Made by a program: the position numbers and the translations under genes. Positions 13,389-51,632 of a stretch of DNA of 64,000 nucleotides are shown piece by piece (position 1 is the stretch's first letter; the number at the start of each line of letters is the position of its first letter). The stretch is from positions 1 through 64,000 of the forward strand of contig NZ_AAEW02000013.1 of the NCBI RefSeq assembly GCF_000167355.1. The letters are read 5' to 3'. The notes beneath the pieces were generated by a model. It did no database searches and was not told the origin of the DNA. It saw only the letters and a program-made list of their open reading frames with translations. This stretch comes from Desulfuromonas acetoxidans DSM 684 (GTDB taxonomy: Bacteria > Desulfobacterota > Desulfuromonadia > Desulfuromonadales > Desulfuromonadaceae).

Positions 13389-14060
13389 ATGGAAAAAAAC
13401 AGCGCGGTAAAACTGTTTCTACAGACATTTTTTGGCAATAGCGACGACCCCCGCTTTACCTTCATTGAGCAGATCAGTCGTTTCACCACCCTGCAACGCA
13501 AGGAGATTCTGTTCCATGAAGGTGATGCCGGCAGCGAGTTTTATTTTCTCGCTTCCGGGCGGGTGAAACTATTTCGCTCCACGGCCGACGGCAAAGAAGC
13601 CGTGATCCGCTTCATTGAGCCGAGTGAATATTTTGCCGAGATCCTCCTGCAGCTTAAAGGACGTTATCCGGTCAGTGCCATCGCCATTGAGCCCTGTGAA
13701 CTGTTGGCCTTGGATGCGCAGAAGATTTTGTCGCATCTGGAGCAACACCCCGACATCGCCATGGTCTTCATCGGAGCACTTTCTCAACGCATCAAATACC
13801 TGTTGGGGATGATCGAACAACTGACCCTGGCCGATATCCGGCAGCGGTTTCTCAATTATCTTGGCGTATTACAGGACAAATCGCCCGCGGGCAGCATTGA
13901 GTTGCCGGCTGCAAAAGGTGAAATTGCCTTACTGCTAGGTACCACACCGGAAACCTTCTCGCGGTTACTGAAAAAACTCTCCACAGAAAAGATCATCCGT
14001 GTCAGCGGACGCTCCATCACCGTACTTGACCCAACAGCCCTTGACGAGGTCGCGCCGTGA
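13389..14060 (+). CDS. Crp/Fnr family transcriptional regulator
   Basis: 223 residues. The N-terminal cyclic-nucleotide-binding-like beta roll (EILFHEGDAGSEFYFLASGRVKLFR, residues about 38-62) is followed by a C-terminal winged helix (KGEIALLLGTTPETFSRLLKKL, about 178-199). There is no N-terminal cysteine cluster, so it is not an oxygen-sensing FNR, and the arginine-containing phosphate cassette (LKGRYPVSAIA) differs from the RxS/T of cAMP-binding Crp, so the effector is unknown; a haem- or NO-sensing DNR/HcpR-like role is possible. The ATG at 13389 has AAAGGA upstream. Its stop overlaps the next start (GTGA). Confidence 0.9.
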   Translation: MEKNSAVKLFLQTFFGNSDDPRFTFIEQISRFTTLQRKEILFHEGDAGSEFYFLASGRVKLFRSTADGKEAVIRFIEPSEYFAEILLQLKGRYPVSAIAIEPCELLALDAQKILSHLEQHPDIAMVFIGALSQRIKYLLGMIEQLTLADIRQRFLNYLGVLQDKSPAGSIELPAAKGEIALLLGTTPETFSRLLKKLSTEKIIRVSGRSITVLDPTALDEVAP

Positions 14061-41203: not shown

Positions 41204-41533
41204 TCAGAAGAAGTCGTGCCACAACCAATCCAGCCGTCCCCGTTTGACAAAGTGGATGCCACTGAATTTCATCACCTGGCGGATGCGCTCTCGCATTTGC
41301 GGACGATAGCAATGGACCGGGCAGTCCTTGCAGGCCGGTTTCGGATTGAGCGGACACCGCTGCAAGCGTTGCAACGCATAATCCAGCAACTCAGCACATT
41401 CAGTGCAATAGTGCCGGCCCTGATCTTCGCGTGCAACAGAGACACCTGCGTTGAGATGATTCTGTCGGCAAAACGTGGCAATGAAGACACGCAGCACTTT
41501 TTCATCTTTGGCAAGCCGCTTCGCAGAAGTCAT
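41204..41533 (-). CDS. YgbA-like nitrous oxide-stimulated promoter family protein
   Basis: 109 residues. Matches the family represented by E. coli YgbA: FIATFCRQNHL, YCTECAELLDYALQRLQRCP, PACKDCPVHCYRPQMRERI and VMKFSGIHF. The cysteines (CxxC, C, CxxCxxxC) suggest metal or thiol chemistry. E. coli ygbA is under NO-responsive control and protects against nitrosative stress. The ATG at 41533 is seven bases after the preceding stop, RBS GGAG close by. Last gene of a five-gene operon; terminator follows. Its company is the main link of this operon to NO. Confidence 0.85.
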   Translation of the reverse strand: MTSAKRLAKDEKVLRVFIATFCRQNHLNAGVSVAREDQGRHYCTECAELLDYALQRLQRCPLNPKPACKDCPVHCYRPQMRERIRQVMKFSGIHFVKRGRLDWLWHDFF

Positions 41534-41540
41534 CTCCGCA

Positions 41541-41783
41541 TTACACCTCGATTCCCGCCGCCTGAATAGCGCTGGGATCATGGGCATGACAGGGAGTGAC
41601 CGCATAAACCATCCCGCACTGCGAGCACTTGCCTTCAAAGGTGGTCATCTCAAAAGGCGTCTGACACTCCTGACAGGTCAGCGTCACGGCTGTGGGCATG
41701 GCCTGAGGGCTGAAGCCCATGGCGCGCACTTTGTTCAAGACATCCATTCCGCTGTTAAAATGTGCACTACATCCATCATGCAT
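41541..41783 (-). CDS. Small zinc-ribbon protein of unknown function
   Basis: 80 residues. A CQEC ... CSQC pair (residues about 37-59, inside TCQECQTPFEMTTFEGKCSQ) forms a probable zinc ribbon, followed by VTPCHAHDP with further possible ligands. N terminus MHDGCSAHFNSGMDVLN. Not recognised as a named family. RBS GGAG upstream. Sits 24 bases after the ABC ATPase gene and seven bases before the YgbA-like gene. Confidence 0.75.
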   Translation of the reverse strand: MHDGCSAHFNSGMDVLNKVRAMGFSPQAMPTAVTLTCQECQTPFEMTTFEGKCSQCGMVYAVTPCHAHDPSAIQAAGIEV

Positions 41784-41807: not shown

Positions 41808-42806
41808 TTAAAGAACGTCCAGGGTATCCCCCTGGCGAATCCGATGACGTAACGCCATCAGTTGTTGATCCAGTTGTTCGAGTTGCTTGAGATTGGCCCG
41901 TTCGGCATCGCTGGTGTCAATGATCCGCGCCACGCCGCCATGACGGATCACCAGCCGCCGCTGCCCCATCAGGGCCAGGATCGGGTCATGGGTTGCCATC
42001 AGGACAATCTTCTCCTCACGCACCAGCAACGCCAGGGCTTTTTTACGATCAATCCCGGCATTTTCGATCTCGTCGATCAGCACAATGGGAGACTGGCTGA
42101 GAATCGCCGTGTCGGCGATCATCAGTGCCCGCGACTGTCCGCCGCTGAGCGAGGTGATCGGCGTGTCGCCGTCAAAAGGTTCCCCGGCCAGTTCATTGGC
42201 CTGGGCAATAATCTTCTTCACCTTGGTCGCGCTGTCCGGAACAAAGCGGCTCTCAGCATGGATGCGGATAAACTCTTCAACGCTCAGGTCCATGACAAAG
42301 TTCATGTTCTGCGACAACTGGGCAACCAGTTTATGCTCGGTGGAAAAGCGCCACGTGGGATCAGGAACGGCTCCATTGATCAAGATCTGGCGCCCGGTCG
42401 GTGTGTCGCCCTGCGCCACCCATTCAATATCAGCCAGCAGACGACTTTTACCAGAACCGGTCGGACCGACAATGCACACCACTTGGCCGGGTTTCAACTC
42501 CAGTTCAAAGTTTTCCGCGTCACCCTGTTTGTTGAAGCCCCCTTTGATGGTCAGCGACTGCACCTGCTCCTGAGTCGAGGACAAACCTTCCATCCCTTCA
42601 ACGTAGCTGACCAGCGCCTGGCAAAAAGCCTCGCGATCCAGGCCGAGATCTTCGAGCTGTTCGCTGGCCAATGCCGCAATATAGTCGGCAAGGCTCTGCT
42701 CCGTTGCGGGCAGAGTCAGGGCAAAAGAATCAAAAAAGTCACGGAGGTACGCGGCCTGTGCCAGCACTTCGGCAAAGGGGCGATGAAGCAGTTGATCGCG
42801 GGTCAT
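41808..42806 (-). CDS. Soluble ABC-type ATPase of the NO-linked module
   Basis: 332 residues. About 100 helical N-terminal residues of no known type precede one ABC ATPase domain: Walker A GPTGSGKSRLL (about 114-124), Q-loop QLSQNMNFV, signature SLSGGQSRALM, Walker B PIVLIDEIENAGID and switch histidine ATHDP. There is no membrane permease gene in the operon, so it is unlikely to be an importer in the usual sense; it may instead power assembly or repair of a protein complex. The ATG overlaps the stop of the GTPase gene by four bases (ATGA). Confidence 0.85.
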   Translation of the reverse strand: MTRDQLLHRPFAEVLAQAAYLRDFFDSFALTLPATEQSLADYIAALASEQLEDLGLDREAFCQALVSYVEGMEGLSSTQEQVQSLTIKGGFNKQGDAENFELELKPGQVVCIVGPTGSGKSRLLADIEWVAQGDTPTGRQILINGAVPDPTWRFSTEHKLVAQLSQNMNFVMDLSVEEFIRIHAESRFVPDSATKVKKIIAQANELAGEPFDGDTPITSLSGGQSRALMIADTAILSQSPIVLIDEIENAGIDRKKALALLVREEKIVLMATHDPILALMGQRRLVIRHGGVARIIDTSDAERANLKQLEQLDQQLMALRHRIRQGDTLDVL

Positions 42807-43498
42807 GCGTCACCTCCCAGATCCATTTTGCGCACATTGCCCATCTGGTGTTGTTCACCGATGCGTGTCTCGCCCAGACAATAGGAGCACAGGGCCGACG
42901 GCATGGAAAAGCGCAGCTTCTTACCGGTCAACGTGGCATGGTCTTCGCCATTGACCAGCAGAGTCGACAGCTCAAATGCGCCCTGGCCGGTGATGCCATT
43001 GACATGCAGGATGGTCGCCTTGGGGTTCACCTGACGCACCCGCGAGGCAAACACTTCGCGTTCGGCCTGAGAAACAATATCGCCCTTGGTGATCACCACG
43101 ATATCCGCGGCTTTGAGCATGGGGCCGATTTTTTTCGGCGTGCCGATACCACTGAGATTGTCAATGACACACACGGCCGTCACCCCCTGAATATGCGGGG
43201 CGCAGCGGTTGCACAAACCAGCGCTTTCACTGATCAGCAGATCGAGCCCCTGCTCCTGGCCCCAGCTCATGCAGGCTTCGACATTACTGACAAAATAATG
43301 ATCCGGGCATAACGCGCCGGAAATCCCTTTGCGCACGGCAATACCGCGTCGCGCATAGAGCTGATCATCCTCGGTGACCAGGCAATCGAACTTGACCACA
43401 CCGATGGTGTGACCGCGCTGTTTCAACGCATCGATGGCCTGGAGGATCACCGCTGTTTTGCCCGATGAGGGCGGTCCGGAAACCGTGAGAAATTTCAT
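42803..43498 (-). CDS. HypB/UreG-like GTPase with extra cysteine motifs
   Basis: 231 residues. A SIMIBI-class G domain: Walker A GPPSSGKTAVI (residues 8-18), ISESAGLCNRCAPH where HypB and UreG have the (V/E)N-G-x-x-x-C region, and the base-recognition motif TKGD. Two Cys pairs (LCNRC and CSYCLGE) could bind a metal or cluster. Relatives deliver nickel, cobalt or zinc to enzymes. Overlaps both neighbours by ATGA, so it is tightly coupled to the ABC ATPase and the SBP-like gene. Confidence 0.85.
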   Translation of the reverse strand: MKFLTVSGPPSSGKTAVILQAIDALKQRGHTIGVVKFDCLVTEDDQLYARRGIAVRKGISGALCPDHYFVSNVEACMSWGQEQGLDLLISESAGLCNRCAPHIQGVTAVCVIDNLSGIGTPKKIGPMLKAADIVVITKGDIVSQAEREVFASRVRQVNPKATILHVNGITGQGAFELSTLLVNGEDHATLTGKKLRFSMPSALCSYCLGETRIGEQHQMGNVRKMDLGGDA

Positions 43499-44724
43499 GC
43501 GTCACCTCCGCCCACCGCCCGATTGAATACCGCCTCAGCATGGCGGATCAGCCCGGCGATATCCTGTTCATAGATATAATCCCAGCCCAGCCATTTCCAT
43601 GGCACAACCTCGGGCAGGCTGTTTTTGACGTGCGGGTGCAGCGATGGGAACAATCCTTTCTGCGCAAGAATCGTCCCCACTTCTTCGCCAGCGAGCAGAT
43701 CAGCCAAGGGGCGAAGTTCATCAAGGCGCTCACTTTTAGCCAGCATGAAGATCGGGCTGATAATCGCACCATCCTCGGGCCAAACAATCTCGACCGATGG
43801 CACGTGCGTGGCCATGCGGGTAAAGAAGTAGGGCAAAATCGTCACCAGCGGCTTGTCGTCCTGCTGGCGCGATGCCGTTTTGACCATCTGCGCCGGATGC
43901 AGGGAGCTGAGCATGGAACGACCCAGCCGCTCAATACCTTCGTCGCCAAACTCCTTGTGAAGGGTCAGCAGGATGGCATTGAACAGATCAAAATCACCCA
44001 CCGGCAAAGAGATCTTCCCGGCATAGATCGGGTCAAGAATATCCGCCCAGGTGCGTGGCACCGGCAGATCGCCCAACTGTTGTTTATCGACCATGAAGAC
44101 GGCCGGAACCACCGAAATCATTGAATAGGCGTGCCGAGGATCGGCCAGGGTCAAGCCGTCAAAGTCCGCATTGACCGCTGGATACTCCAGCGCGGTGAAC
44201 AGCCCATCACGGCAATAGCCGCCAATTCCCTGCGGGTCGAAGAACACATCAAAACCGGCGGAAACAAACAGGTCAGGCAATTCGGCAACGCTTTTAGCCT
44301 GAAGGATATGCTCTTCCATCCAGTCGGCGCCAACGGACGCCGCCTCAAGGCGGCTGCGCACCCGCAGGCCGGTTTGCGCTTCAAAGGCCTCGACCTCGCG
44401 GGTCACCAGTTCGAGTAACGGCATACGGACCGGGCACGGCAACAGACCGGCCAGATCAATATCGTAGTGGTCGCGTTGGCGCTCCACCAGGGTGATATCC
44501 GCCTGCTGGTCGGCTGCGTCAATACGTTCCTGCAACAGTGCGATAAACGCCGCACAATCGTAGCCTTTTTGGCTCAGGGCCGACTCCAGCTTGAGAAAGC
44601 GACCGACACGATCGATCATCTCTGGTTGAGCAAATTGCTCAAAGCCGTTGGCGGTAAACACATCCAGTGTCTGCGGCCAAGTGTCAATAATCTGTTTGAT
44701 GGTCATCTGTGGTTGAATCAACAT
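43495..44724 (-). CDS. Cytoplasmic substrate-binding-like protein with DUF1858-like N terminus
   Basis: 409 residues. The first about 65 residues (MTIKQIIDTWPQTLDVFTANGF and on to YDCAAFIALLQ; longer run not quoted) resemble DUF1858, a small domain often tied to hybrid cluster proteins, but its CxxC is missing. The rest is a type 2 periplasmic-binding fold (LPDLFVSAGFDVFFDP, VPAVFMVDKQQLGDLPVP, TWADILDPIYAGKISLP). There is no signal peptide, so the protein is cytoplasmic, which is unusual for this fold. ATG at 44724 chosen for GGAGGG. First gene of the module, behind an FNR-type box. Confidence 0.8.
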   Translation of the reverse strand: MLIQPQMTIKQIIDTWPQTLDVFTANGFEQFAQPEMIDRVGRFLKLESALSQKGYDCAAFIALLQERIDAADQQADITLVERQRDHYDIDLAGLLPCPVRMPLLELVTREVEAFEAQTGLRVRSRLEAASVGADWMEEHILQAKSVAELPDLFVSAGFDVFFDPQGIGGYCRDGLFTALEYPAVNADFDGLTLADPRHAYSMISVVPAVFMVDKQQLGDLPVPRTWADILDPIYAGKISLPVGDFDLFNAILLTLHKEFGDEGIERLGRSMLSSLHPAQMVKTASRQQDDKPLVTILPYFFTRMATHVPSVEIVWPEDGAIISPIFMLAKSERLDELRPLADLLAGEEVGTILAQKGLFPSLHPHVKNSLPEVVPWKWLGWDYIYEQDIAGLIRHAEAVFNRAVGGGDA

Positions 44725-44747
44725 TGTTCCCTCCTGTTGTTTCAGCA

Positions 44748-44753
44748 ATAATG
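44748..44753 (-). promoter_or_regulatory. Probable -10 element of the NO-linked operon
   Basis: CATTAT on the minus strand, four of six matches to TATAAT, placed so that the FNR-type box is centred at -41.5 and the start site would be an A at about 44741, giving a 17-base leader containing GGAGGG. Confidence 0.55.
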
Positions 44754-44775
44754 CCTTAACTTGCTGCAGTGGGAA

Positions 44776-44789
44776 TTGATAGAAATCAA
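44776..44789 (-). promoter_or_regulatory. FNR/DNR-type operator upstream of the NO-linked operon
   Basis: TTGATAGAAATCAA is a perfect TTGAT-N4-ATCAA palindrome, extended to AATTGATAGAAATCAATT (44774-44791). It lies 52 bases upstream of the first gene and matches the consensus of FNR, DNR and related Crp/Fnr activators. Confidence 0.8.
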
Positions 44790-44893
44790 TTATAGATGAC
44801 TTTAACGGTTTTTTATTGCGGCGTCAAAAAGGGAGGTAATCCAGCATTACAACAGGAAAACGAGGGCTGAATAAACAGATCAGGCAGAGACAA

Positions 44894-44944: not shown

Positions 44945-46447
44945 TTACTTACTGTAGGATGTTTTGAATTCCATATCGCGAGTTTTCGGGTCAAAAATCC
45001 CCTTAGTCGCCGCCTCCTTGTTCCACTCTTCACGCAGAGTGCCAAGGAACTTCTTCTTATCACTTACCAGTTTTTCCATTGGCAGGCCGATCAACTCCTG
45101 GGCCTGTTCCTTGCTGGTAATGGCGGGTGCCTGATAATCTGCAGCACTATATTTCGCCAAAATGATCCGCAGCTTCAAACGTGCATCATGTGCTTTATTG
45201 ATGGCACTACCAAGAATACGCAGAGTTTCCTCCGGTGCGTGGAAGAAGCCACCATGAGCAGCGACTGCAAAATCCCACCGCCATTGACCATGACGAATAT
45301 CGGTCAAAGCTGGTTTCATCTCAGCTTCAGTAGCACCCAGCTCCCATGCCTTGGCTGCCTCAAGATGGGCCTTGGCCAAAATATCCGTCGCGGTATGGGC
45401 CAACTCGTTTTTGCGCTCCAGCTTACGAGCAATAATGTCCTTGAGTTCCTGCTCACTTTCACCATGACAATTGAGGCAGGTGTTCTGCATATCATCCAGG
45501 GGACTACCAATCTTATGACTGGAGTACTTCACGCCACCCTCACGAACATACGGCATATGGCAATCCGCACAGGCCAGATTGTTCTTGCCATGAATCCCGG
45601 TTTTAAAGGTTTCGTATCCAGGGTGCTGTGCTTTGAGCATCGGCGTCTTACTCAGTTTATGGGTCCAGTCGACGAACTCACGCTCATCGTAATACTGCTC
45701 AATGTCCTCGGCGGAAAGACCGTTATCCCACGGGAAGGTGACAACACCAGCAGTATGTTCTTCACCTGCCGGGTCTGTCCACGGAGTCTTCTTGAAGTAA
45801 TACTCGGAATGGCACTGCACACACACCAGGGTACGCATATCCTGATGCTTAGCCTCAGCAAACGGCTCACTCCCTTCAGCATCAAGCGCACGCTTGAGAA
45901 AGTCACGCGTCACGGTGAGTTTCATAGTTTCATTGTCATGGCAGTCTGCGCAGCCAATCGGGTTTACGATCTCACTACCCCAACGAGCCCACTTGCCCGT
46001 AAAGAAGTCAAGCTCACCCTTCTCTTCGATCAGACGCGGAACATCCGGTGACTTACAGGTCCAACAGGCTGTTGGCATTGGCCCACTCTTTTGATCGATG
46101 GGGGCACCCGTACGCAAGGTGTTGATATTGTCTTCCAAAATGTAGTAATGACCACGCGGCGCATTATAGTCCTTCGAAAAGCCGTAACCGGCCCACAGCA
46201 CGACCAGATTGGGGTCCTGCTTCAACACATCCTTGATTTCATCGCTCTTGCGCGTCTCCAGATAGGAGTCATACTGGCGTGGGTAATACTTGCCCCACTC
46301 GGCACTTTTTGGTTCCAATTTCTTGATTTCAGGCACAGCATTGATCGCTTGCTGCTCAGCTTTATTCTCCTTGATGGAGATCACAAGCAACAGCATCGGG
46401 ACCATGATCACCACAGAAGCAATTGTCACGAATGTTGATCTCTTCAT
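44945..46447 (-). CDS. nrfA: Ammonia-forming cytochrome c nitrite reductase NrfA
   Basis: 500 residues. Reduces nitrite (and NO, hydroxylamine) to ammonia in the periplasm. N-terminal signal/anchor (TFVTIASVVIMVPMLLLVIS). Five haem sites: the catalytic CWTCK with lysine as ligand, then CADCH, CVQCH, CADCH and CLNCH. The active-site region with Tyr, His and Arg (near QHPGYETFKTGIHGK) is present. Length is typical. It follows nrfH by 24 bases. Confidence 0.97.
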   Translation of the reverse strand: MKRSTFVTIASVVIMVPMLLLVISIKENKAEQQAINAVPEIKKLEPKSAEWGKYYPRQYDSYLETRKSDEIKDVLKQDPNLVVLWAGYGFSKDYNAPRGHYYILEDNINTLRTGAPIDQKSGPMPTACWTCKSPDVPRLIEEKGELDFFTGKWARWGSEIVNPIGCADCHDNETMKLTVTRDFLKRALDAEGSEPFAEAKHQDMRTLVCVQCHSEYYFKKTPWTDPAGEEHTAGVVTFPWDNGLSAEDIEQYYDEREFVDWTHKLSKTPMLKAQHPGYETFKTGIHGKNNLACADCHMPYVREGGVKYSSHKIGSPLDDMQNTCLNCHGESEQELKDIIARKLERKNELAHTATDILAKAHLEAAKAWELGATEAEMKPALTDIRHGQWRWDFAVAAHGGFFHAPEETLRILGSAINKAHDARLKLRIILAKYSAADYQAPAITSKEQAQELIGLPMEKLVSDKKKFLGTLREEWNKEAATKGIFDPKTRDMEFKTSYSK

Positions 46448-46471: not shown

Positions 46472-46999
46472 CTAAAGTTCTTTCACACCTAAATTGTGCT
46501 GGGTTGTTGTCAGGTTTCGAGTACGTCCATGGGGGACCATACGATGGCAGTCCCAACAGCGCCGGCCCATGGGGACACCTTCTTCAAACTGACTGTACAA
46601 CTGACTGTTTTCCATCATCTGTGATACAGCTTCACTGTGGCACGATATACAGTTGTTCTGTATCCTCTCGGCGGCATCATCCGTGATCCGCAAGTTGTAG
46701 CCATAAGTGCGCAAAGTCATCGCCATAGAATGATTGAAACCATCTTTAGCTTTTGCCAGCATCTTGTTGGCAAAGGAATCACGCGGCAGGTGGCAGTCGA
46801 TGCAACTGGCCTGCTCACGATGAGAGCTGTGCTGCCAAGTCGCATAATGGGTGTTCATAGTGTGGCAGTTGATGCAGACCTTTGGATCTCCCGAAAGGTA
46901 GGACAGCATCTTGGATTCAAAGACGATATACAAAAACAGTCCGATCACTGCCACAACACAACAGGTTGCTACATATCTCATAACGTTACTATTTTTCAT
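46472..46999 (-). CDS. nrfH: NrfH, tetrahaem quinol dehydrogenase of nitrite reductase
   Basis: 175 residues. Membrane-anchored NapC/NirT-family cytochrome that passes electrons from menaquinol to NrfA. One N-terminal helix (YVATCCVVAVIGLFLYIVF) and four haem motifs CINCH, CIDCH, CISCH and CWDCH. The ATG at 46999 has AAAGG upstream; upstream in-frame residues are not family-like. Next gene is nrfA. Confidence 0.95.
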   Translation of the reverse strand: MKNSNVMRYVATCCVVAVIGLFLYIVFESKMLSYLSGDPKVCINCHTMNTHYATWQHSSHREQASCIDCHLPRDSFANKMLAKAKDGFNHSMAMTLRTYGYNLRITDDAAERIQNNCISCHSEAVSQMMENSQLYSQFEEGVPMGRRCWDCHRMVPHGRTRNLTTTQHNLGVKEL

Positions 47000-47203
47000 A
47001 AGCAGCCTTTTTGGTCGTGGGACGTTTCTGTTTCCCAAGCTTAAAATCGTGATTCGGTTCAACAGGTGGCCAATGCTTCATCCGTCTCATCCTTTCTGCT
47101 GTGGCGGCAGCGTTATCCACAGTTCCCGAATCGATCATTACGCCATCGGCTCCTATCCGAGCAGGACCACTACGTCACTGAAGTGGCGCAGTGGCCAGAT
47201 CAG

Positions 47204-48524: not shown

Positions 48525-48541
48525 TACAACGACTATGCCAA
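48525..48541 (-). promoter_or_regulatory. Sigma54-type -24/-12 promoter of the porin-nrfHA operon
   Basis: Minus-strand TTGGCATAGTCGTTGTA matches TGGCAc-N5-TTGCa with GT in place of the -12 GC and the correct GG-N10 spacing. The predicted start is near 48514, giving a leader of about 70 bases. A sigma54 activator gene lies directly upstream. Confidence 0.6.
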
Positions 48542-48660: not shown

Positions 48661-48694
48661 GATGCCAGCGTTACCGTTAAGTAACGCTGGCATC
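48661..48694. repeat. Palindrome 2, probable activator binding site
   Basis: GATGCCAGCGTTAC and GTAACGCTGGCATC are perfect 14-base arms around CGTTAA. It contains the same CGTTAC-N6-GTAACG core as palindrome 1 and straddles the stop codon of the activator gene. No T tract follows on the minus strand, so a terminator is less likely. Confidence 0.7.
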
Positions 48695-50044
48695 CGTCAA
48701 ATTGTAGCGCTGAATCTTTTCCCATAAACTTTTACGGGAGATGCCTAAATGCTCTGCGGTTTTCGATTTCTTATAGTCACATTGTTTCAAGGCGGCTGCG
48801 ATATAGTCCCGTTCAAAAAAATCAACGGCCTCTTTAAGCGCCAATCCCCCTTGAATAGTGTGCTGCGCAGTGGTCACCACCGAAGCGCTCAGCAGGTCCT
48901 GCGGCAGATCATCGGGAAGAATCAGTTCACCACTACTCAGGGCCACAGCACGTTCCATGGCATGTTCCAGTTGACGGATATTCCCTGGGAAGTGATGATG
49001 AAGCAGAATATTCAACGCCTCTGTAGACAGATGGCGGACCGGTTTATTCATCTGCGTGGAAAACTTGTCGAGAAACATTTCAGCCAGAGGCTCAATGTCT
49101 TCGCGGCGCTCACGTAACGGTGGTACGTCAATATGGATCACGTTGAGACGATAAAACAGGTCTTCGCGAAACTTGCCACCGGCAACATCGTCACTGAGAA
49201 TATGATTGGTTGCGGCGACAATACGCACATCAATCAGAACTTCTGATTTTCCACCAAGGGGTTGCACCTTGCGCTCTTGCAACACCCGTAACAACTTCGC
49301 TTGAGATGCCAGCGGAAGATCTCCGACCTCATCAAGGAACAACGTACCGCCATTGGCCAGCTCAAACTTCCCTTTACGGTTTTCCGTCGCGCCAGTGAAC
49401 GCTCCTTTAACAAAACCGAACAGTTCTGACTCAATCAGGTTGTCAGGCAAAGCGGCACAGTTCACTTTCACCAGTGGACCGTTGCGTCGCGGACTGTTCT
49501 GATGGAGCAATTCCACCACGCATTCTTTGCCGGTGCCGTTCTCGCCGGTCACAAGAACCGTAGAATCGATTTGCCCAAGGGAAACCGCCATATCCATGAC
49601 GCGCAGAGCAGCATCGCTGTGAACCACCAGGCATTTCATTTTTTCATCAGACTGGCGGGATCTGAGAGATTCGTTTTCTTCACGCAAACGTTTCTCTTCG
49701 GTAACATCACGGCTAATCAACAGCGTCCCAAGATAAGTGCCGTCCGGGGCTTTGATCGCGGTATAAGAATTGGAGAAAAAGCGCTTTTGTGCGTGAATAA
49801 TGCGGCTACCAGAGGAGATACGGCCTGACTTAAGGCTTTCGATCAACTGGCGGATACGGTCGTGCATCCGTCCAGGATGCAGTGAATAAATGCTACGTCC
49901 GATAATCCGCTCCGCCTTAACCCGCCGTATCCTTTCGGCTGCGGGATTGCAAATACAGATGACATCGTCTGCATCGAGGAAAACAACACCCTCTGTCATC
50001 TCTTCAACAATCGATTGATAGATCGACGTCACTTCTTTAGCCAT
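48677..50044 (-). CDS. PAS-containing sigma54-dependent activator (probable nrf regulator)
   Basis: 455 residues. N-terminal PAS domain ([24 protein letters not shown] region, core [20 protein letters not shown]), with [20 protein letters not shown]+ domain with Walker [12 protein letters not shown], the sigma54-contacting loop GAFTGAT, Walker [12 protein letters not shown]; and a Fis-type helix-turn-helix ([20 protein letters not shown]). No receiver domain, so it senses a signal itself through PAS. The ATG at 50044 has GGAGG upstream. Two palindromes and a -24/-12 site follow, leading into porin-nrfHA. Confidence 0.9.
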
Positions 50045-50110
50045 ACGCCCTCCTGCAATGTTCCCATTTGGTAACAACATAGCCTAGTGGAGCGGACAAA
50101 ATCAACGCAT

Positions 50111-51618: not shown

Positions 51619-51632
51619 TTGATCTGCGTCAA
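51619..51632. promoter_or_regulatory. FNR-like palindrome in the gltA leader
   Basis: TTGATCTGCGTCAA (TTGAt-N4-gTCAA type) lies just downstream of the predicted gltA start site (about +13), where a Crp/Fnr-family protein would repress. Confidence 0.5.

Follow-up and report, generated by a model that had tools for sequence, protein, structure and literature searches.

FNR-dependent class II promoters of Escherichia coli have a box centred at -41.5 and no good -35 element. The sites described for the HcpR1 regulon (Desulfuromonas, Geobacter, Desulfotalea) are FNR-like palindromes with T at position 3 that precede hcp and frdX, and the HcpR1 regulators lack the FNR cysteines and have Pro or Ser at position 180 and Glu at position 181 (PMC1274295). 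The published consensus of these sites is TTGAC-N4-GTCAA, whereas the palindrome described below is TTGAT-N4-ATCAA. A motif like the latter is bound by DNR of Pseudomonas aeruginosa (PMC1274295). The targets of DNR are the nir, nor and nos denitrification genes, while those found here are hcp and a set of five genes. HcpR of Porphyromonas gingivalis, also of the Crp/Fnr family, is a haem-dependent, NO-responsive activator of hcp (PMC12750200), but it belongs to the HcpR2 branch and has another DNA motif (PMC1274295). In E. coli, ygbA is an NsrR-regulated, NO-responsive gene (PMC5320621).

The stretch of DNA analysed here, referred to as the window, comprises 64,000 nucleotides from Desulfuromonas acetoxidans DSM 684. 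Its initial annotation had claimed a perfect palindrome of the TTGAT-N4-ATCAA class upstream of the first gene of a module, together with a CATTAT -10 element, a predicted A start that puts the box centre at -41.5 and a 17-base leader with GGAGGG, and all of these are borne out. The Crp/Fnr-type palindrome, AATTGATAGAAATCAATT at 44774-44791, is an inverted repeat of AATTGAT and ATCAATT around the spacer AGAA; its 14-mer core occupies 44776-44789 and its centre lies at 44782.5. We assign it to this type from its sequence and from the conservation of the box before gene 1 orthologues. The other elements are on the minus strand. The -10 hexamer CATTAT (44748-44753) stands 22 bases past the core, and its pattern YAnnnT is kept in the boxed orthologue promoters. 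Relative to the predicted transcript start, an A at 44741 placed purely by geometry, the hexamer is at -12 to -7 and the 14-mer at -48 to -35, i.e. centred at -41.5. The leader, AACAACAGGAGGGAACA (17 nt, 44725-44741), contains the ribosome-binding sequence GGAGGG and is followed by an ATG at 44724-44722. With the start so predicted, the arrangement is that of a class II Crp/Fnr-dependent promoter (centre near -41.5, a -10 element, no -35 element needed), and the box is at the same time an HcpR1-type site, i.e. a TTGA(C/T)-N4-(G/A)TCAA palindrome with A/T flanks.

The conservation of this promoter was investigated in two collections. A search with gene 1 in 58 genomes gave 13 orthologues with at least 48% identity, from 12 genomes (two in G002), 12 of which have an exact upstream box; the exception, G010, has a box with one mismatch and no hexamer in place. 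A search with the ATPase gene in 277 genomes of the class was narrowed to 20 loci on contigs with room around the genes. Fifteen of these are orthologues with a promoter, all with exact boxes, four (L247-L250) are paralogues and have no box, and L231, whose promoter is cut by the contig end, was left out of the promoter count. Orthologues and paralogues were told apart by identity, gene content and neighbours, and if a divergent intergenic region has two boxes, the one closer to gene 1 was counted. In other words, of the 28 gene 1 orthologues with an available promoter, 27 are preceded by an exact TTGAY-N4-RTCAA box. YAnnnT lies exactly 22 bases past the 14-mer in 24 of the 27 boxed promoters and at 21 or 23 bases in the other three, and when offsets from 5 to 60 were scanned none outside 21-23 exceeded four promoters. 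In the first 12 promoters, offset 22 was already 4.4 standard deviations over the mean of 55 offsets. A second copy of gene 1 in G002 (L106, G002:C1:2170500-2178500) has its own box and is followed by a YgbA homologue, without genes 2-4.

The same promoter is found before hcp. There were 26 hcp matches across 16 genomes; of the 19 whose start could be placed, 16 carry an exact box 93-155 bp upstream. Over these 16 promoters the 22-base spacing stands out again (z 3.7 among 55 offsets). No box was seen within 450 bp upstream of hcp in L137 and L142, and the remaining unboxed gene among the 19 has just 99 bp of upstream sequence. In the source genome all three hcp genes with a locatable start are boxed, and the fourth match, close to the end of a contig, is an open frame of 88 aa. 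Three of the sites found here are identical to those listed for Desulfuromonas hcp4, hcp3 and galE in Table 10 of Rodionov 2004 (PMC545781), the last being the site of L100 before an epimerase-like gene. The class II activator geometry that had been proposed for the window is thus upheld by 27 of 28 gene 1 promoters, 24 of 27 with identical spacing, and by the 16 hcp promoters, which are alike. It had also been suggested that a genome scan for the palindrome might reveal it at hcp and nrf genes; hcp does share it (the three genes with a locatable start). nrfHA is given as an HcpR1 target in PMC1274295, but no exact box lies upstream of nrfHA in the window, so its control by way of this motif finds no support here.

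hcp adjoins the gene set in 12 of the 28 orthologue loci. In ten it is divergent (nine of L231-L246, and L113 of G049), and in L233 and L235 it follows directly after the set, on the same strand. In L239, L242 and L243 there is a single exact box within the 260 bp scanned, and this box may act on hcp too. A stretch of about 10 kb in G002 contains hcp, the gene set and a ferredoxin gene (L105, 5896-6090), taken for frdX, that has its own composite site (G002:C1:3426695); this ferredoxin result concerns the congener only. In the source genome, G007 and G008, hcp is far from the gene set. Two very similar hcp loci occur in one genome (L007, G000:C2:73300-76300, and L019, G000:C26:19200-22200), where each hcp is preceded by the same box and by a long ORF that is NrfA-like by eye.

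The window itself encodes a candidate binder of the box, a Crp/Fnr regulator of the HcpR1/DNR type at 13389-14060 on the plus strand. Profile searches with HTH_Crp_2, Crp and cNMP_binding gave it as the single HTH-bearing Crp/Fnr protein in the assembly; four other cNMP-domain proteins, whose frames were read, matched neither of the two HTH profiles. At 96.5% completeness, the assembly may lack a second Crp/Fnr gene. By sequence, the closest solved structure is DNR (PDB 3dkw, 2z69), which has the identical PETFSR recognition segment. The segment TTPETFSR of the regulator fits the HcpR1 rule (Pro/Ser 180, Glu 181, no FNR cysteines), with the numbering taken from a reading of the helix. Twelve further genomes supplied orthologues with 52-97% identity; among the 13 aligned proteins, 3 have Ala in place of Pro and no cysteine is invariant. 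The initial annotation had called the protein a non-cysteine one, which is correct in that it has no N-terminal cysteine cluster of the kind that holds the 4Fe-4S cluster of FNR, and incorrect in that it does have one cysteine, at residue 103.

The surroundings of the regulator were followed in a scan of named genomes, which gave 27 loci of regulator relatives in Desulfuromonadales and kin, Deferribacterales, Nitrospirae and two others. An exact box occurs in 11 of the 27 and in none of the other 16. In L189 and L197 the regulator relative is divergent to hcp with a box between them, and hcp was not found beside the other 25. In L190-L195 the relative lies near a homologue of gene 4 that is preceded by a box, with the hexamer 21 or 22 bases on (by eye). 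The latter loci are from Seleniivibrio, Denitrovibrio and Deferribacteraceae, and no other part of the gene set was found in their flanks. Neither hcp nor gene 4 was present in the flanks covered for 15 loci of Desulfuromonadales or kin (L174-L188), and in the source genome the regulator (C13) does not adjoin the hcp genes (C2, C26 and C19). Since the Desulfuromonadales relatives are not beside hcp, our confidence in the HcpR1/DNR reading is slightly lower. G005, which is 80% complete, has the box, but no PF13545 protein turned up there.

Taken together, the box is most probably, at a probability of about 0.86 given the sequence comparisons, the operator of a class II promoter activated by the HcpR1/DNR-kind regulator at 13389-14060, which would drive the gene set together with hcp. 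When the cell is exposed to nitric oxide derived from nitrite, the regulator would bind the box; by analogy with HcpR and DNR it would carry an NO-binding haem. From -41.5 it would contact RNA polymerase, make up for the missing -35 element and fire the CATTAT promoter, and activation would drive genes 1 to 5 together with the hcp genes that have the same promoter. We infer binding, activation and the haem. That NO is the signal is likewise suggested by the targets, namely hcp, which has nrf genes and YgbA for neighbours, by the haem and NO work on HcpR and by the NsrR-regulated ygbA of E. coli. The initial annotation had left the choice among low oxygen, nitrite and NO; the content of the regulon favours NO or nitrite, while low oxygen acting through an FNR-type sensor is disfavoured. 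The gene set seems to be under the same control as the NO-defence enzyme Hcp, so that the regulatory unit would consist of one candidate regulator, one promoter design and two kinds of targets, hcp and the gene set. This kind of promoter is already known; what is new is the gene set linked to Hcp. The set is absent from the Desulfuromonas rows of the excerpt of Table 10 in PMC545781 and from section 12 of PMC1274295, and it is not described in the titles and abstract openings of the literature covered.

The same palindrome could be read by an FNR with an Fe-S cluster that activates the gene set under anoxia, as TTGAT-N4-ATCAA is also the FNR consensus (PMC1274295) and the geometry is like that of the E. 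coli promoters. We consider this improbable, because the FNR cysteines are missing from the single HTH-bearing Crp/Fnr protein found, which has Cys103 alone and none near the N-terminus; no cysteine is invariant in the 13 regulators, and no sensor of the Fe-S type was found in the source genome. There is a small but genuine chance that the site is real and that its binder is another Crp/Fnr protein, either one missing from the assembly or an HcpR of the SETLSR type. Complete congeners have 3-5 PF13545 matches, and G040 and G049 combine the box with a regulator that is 33% identical and of the SETLSR type. Against this stand the profile searches, which give a single HTH-bearing protein, and the distribution of the window's own regulator, whose orthologues occur in the 12 further genomes and whose Deferribacterales relatives adjoin hcp or gene 4, again with the box.

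A protein on the box might also act as a repressor that blocks an upstream promoter, and a consensus scan does place a sigma-70-like pair, TTGACG-N17-TAAAGT (minus strand, 44827-44799), directly upstream of the box. However, the scan expects 0.6 such pairs by chance, by eye it occurs in just two of the 12 promoters viewed with upstream sequence, those of G000 and its close relative G007, and the distance from box to hexamer is constant within one base in 27 of 27, all of which makes a repressor operator very improbable. That the palindrome is a product of chance deserves consideration in that 9 of the 16 strict matches in the genome fall within predicted ORFs, and for this reason the box by itself is weak evidence. 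The window contains the strict core once, along with 9 one-mismatch matches (2.67 +/- 1.49 in shuffles) and 3 matches to TTGAY-N4-RTCAA (0.34 +/- 0.55). Genome-wide, the 16 strict sites compare with about 2.9 expected from base composition, and the reversed pattern, used as a control, has none. By itself the motif thus appears only moderately unusual, and it is the comparative conservation of the sequences that is decisive: 27 of 28 orthologues with a fixed spacing, as opposed to no exact box in 16 paralogue loci, refute a chance origin, which we regard as vanishingly unlikely.

Returning to the activator promoter, the members of its putative regulon in the source genome were sought with the composite pattern box-N22-YATNNT, which has five exact matches: three hcp genes, the gene set and one site within a predicted ORF. 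The last, C5:16023, was rejected as a regulon member; the predicted ORF around it has a modest coding score, and a similar stretch of G008 has a mismatch. ORFs and coding scores were obtained with a small codon model for which ten genes of the window served as training set. Further strict or TTGAY sites outside predicted ORFs, namely those of a VIT1-family gene (L010), L005, L017, L082, L100 and window position 51619, were also set aside because there is no YAnnnT at offset 22 on the strands read. The site at 51619-51632, TTGATCTGCGTCAA, is located midway between a citrate synthase-like gene and a divergent Dus-like gene, with no offset-22 hexamer on either strand.

The gene set, all on the minus strand, would be transcribed as one unit from the predicted promoter. 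Gene 1 (43495-44724) has an N-terminal DUF1858 domain and an SBP_bac_6 domain and no signal peptide evident by eye. Its predicted fold (mean pLDDT 85.8) is like that of ferric-binding proteins, which make up most of the best 50 fold matches, at a modest TM of 0.44-0.56 by query length and 10-16% identity. Gene 2 (42803-43498) encodes a GTPase of the CobW/HypB/UreG type and gene 3 (41808-42806) an ABC-type ATPase; there is no permease gene among genes 1-5. Gene 4 (41541-41783) encodes a protein of 80 aa that has two CxxC pairs and by eye resembles a Zn ribbon; its only Pfam match is below threshold. It is found in 27 of the 28 orthologue loci and is absent from the second set of G002 (G002b, L106). 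Gene 5 (41204-41638) belongs to the YgbA_NO family; its start codon is uncertain, and with several relatives the alignment begins only at about residue 33-40. This gene is present in 9 of 10 other loci from the same family of genomes and in 0 of 18 orthologue loci from other families, and since it is found in only one family we regard YgbA as a local addition, not as a constant part of the set.

The boxless paralogues, whose gene 1 is 30-35% identical, are found in different surroundings. Their loci are L115 (G016), L116 (G000:C14:14000-26000), L032-L038, L040, L042-L044, L046 and L247-L250. The stretches of 16 such loci were scanned in whole, with no exact box found; L034 offers only 81 bp upstream. 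The six sets that lie in longer stretches (L115, L116 and L247-L250) contain genes 1-3 and no gene 4 or 5. By tblastn, 13 of the 16 have neighbours that are nitrogenase-cofactor genes, NifB-like, molybdate-type permeases or DUF364 (the names NifB and molybdate-type are our own, given on Pfam matches), and L034, L247 and L250 have none of these. In the 28 orthologue loci the same search gave one weak ABC match (L245) and nothing in the rest. As the orthologues are boxed and the paralogues are boxless with other neighbours, the box tracks the Hcp-linked branch. The paralogue neighbourhoods suggest that the gene 1-3 family as a whole has a role connected with a cofactor or metal.

The gene set would presumably help Hcp, or survival under nitrosative stress. 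We tentatively consider, as a possible though rather doubtful model, that it is an NO-induced metal-cluster machine for Hcp, and that the boxless paralogue, which has NifB-like and Nitro_FeMo-Co genes beside it, is its analogue for the nitrogenase/molybdenum cofactor. Here, the cytoplasmic ferric-binding-like protein, the CobW-type GTPase and the ABC ATPase would load or repair the hybrid Fe-S-O cluster, and gene 4, with YgbA in the family of the source genome, would be NO-specific additions. Because its promoter is common with hcp, the two often adjoin and the paralogue lies among nitrogenase/molybdenum genes, the set offers candidates for the building or upkeep of the hybrid cluster of Hcp under nitrosative stress.

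On the other side of the box, the neighbouring nrfA (44945-46447) and nrfH (46472-47062), both on the minus strand, are outside the unit driven by the box. The terminator considered between nrfA and the box is weak and was dismissed, and a hemerythrin search added nothing. A sigma-54-like site, TGGCATAGTCGTTGT (48526-48540, minus strand), before porin-nrfH-nrfA was likewise rejected, being at chance level in the window. The gene of a sigma-54 regulator (48677-50080) adjoins this site.
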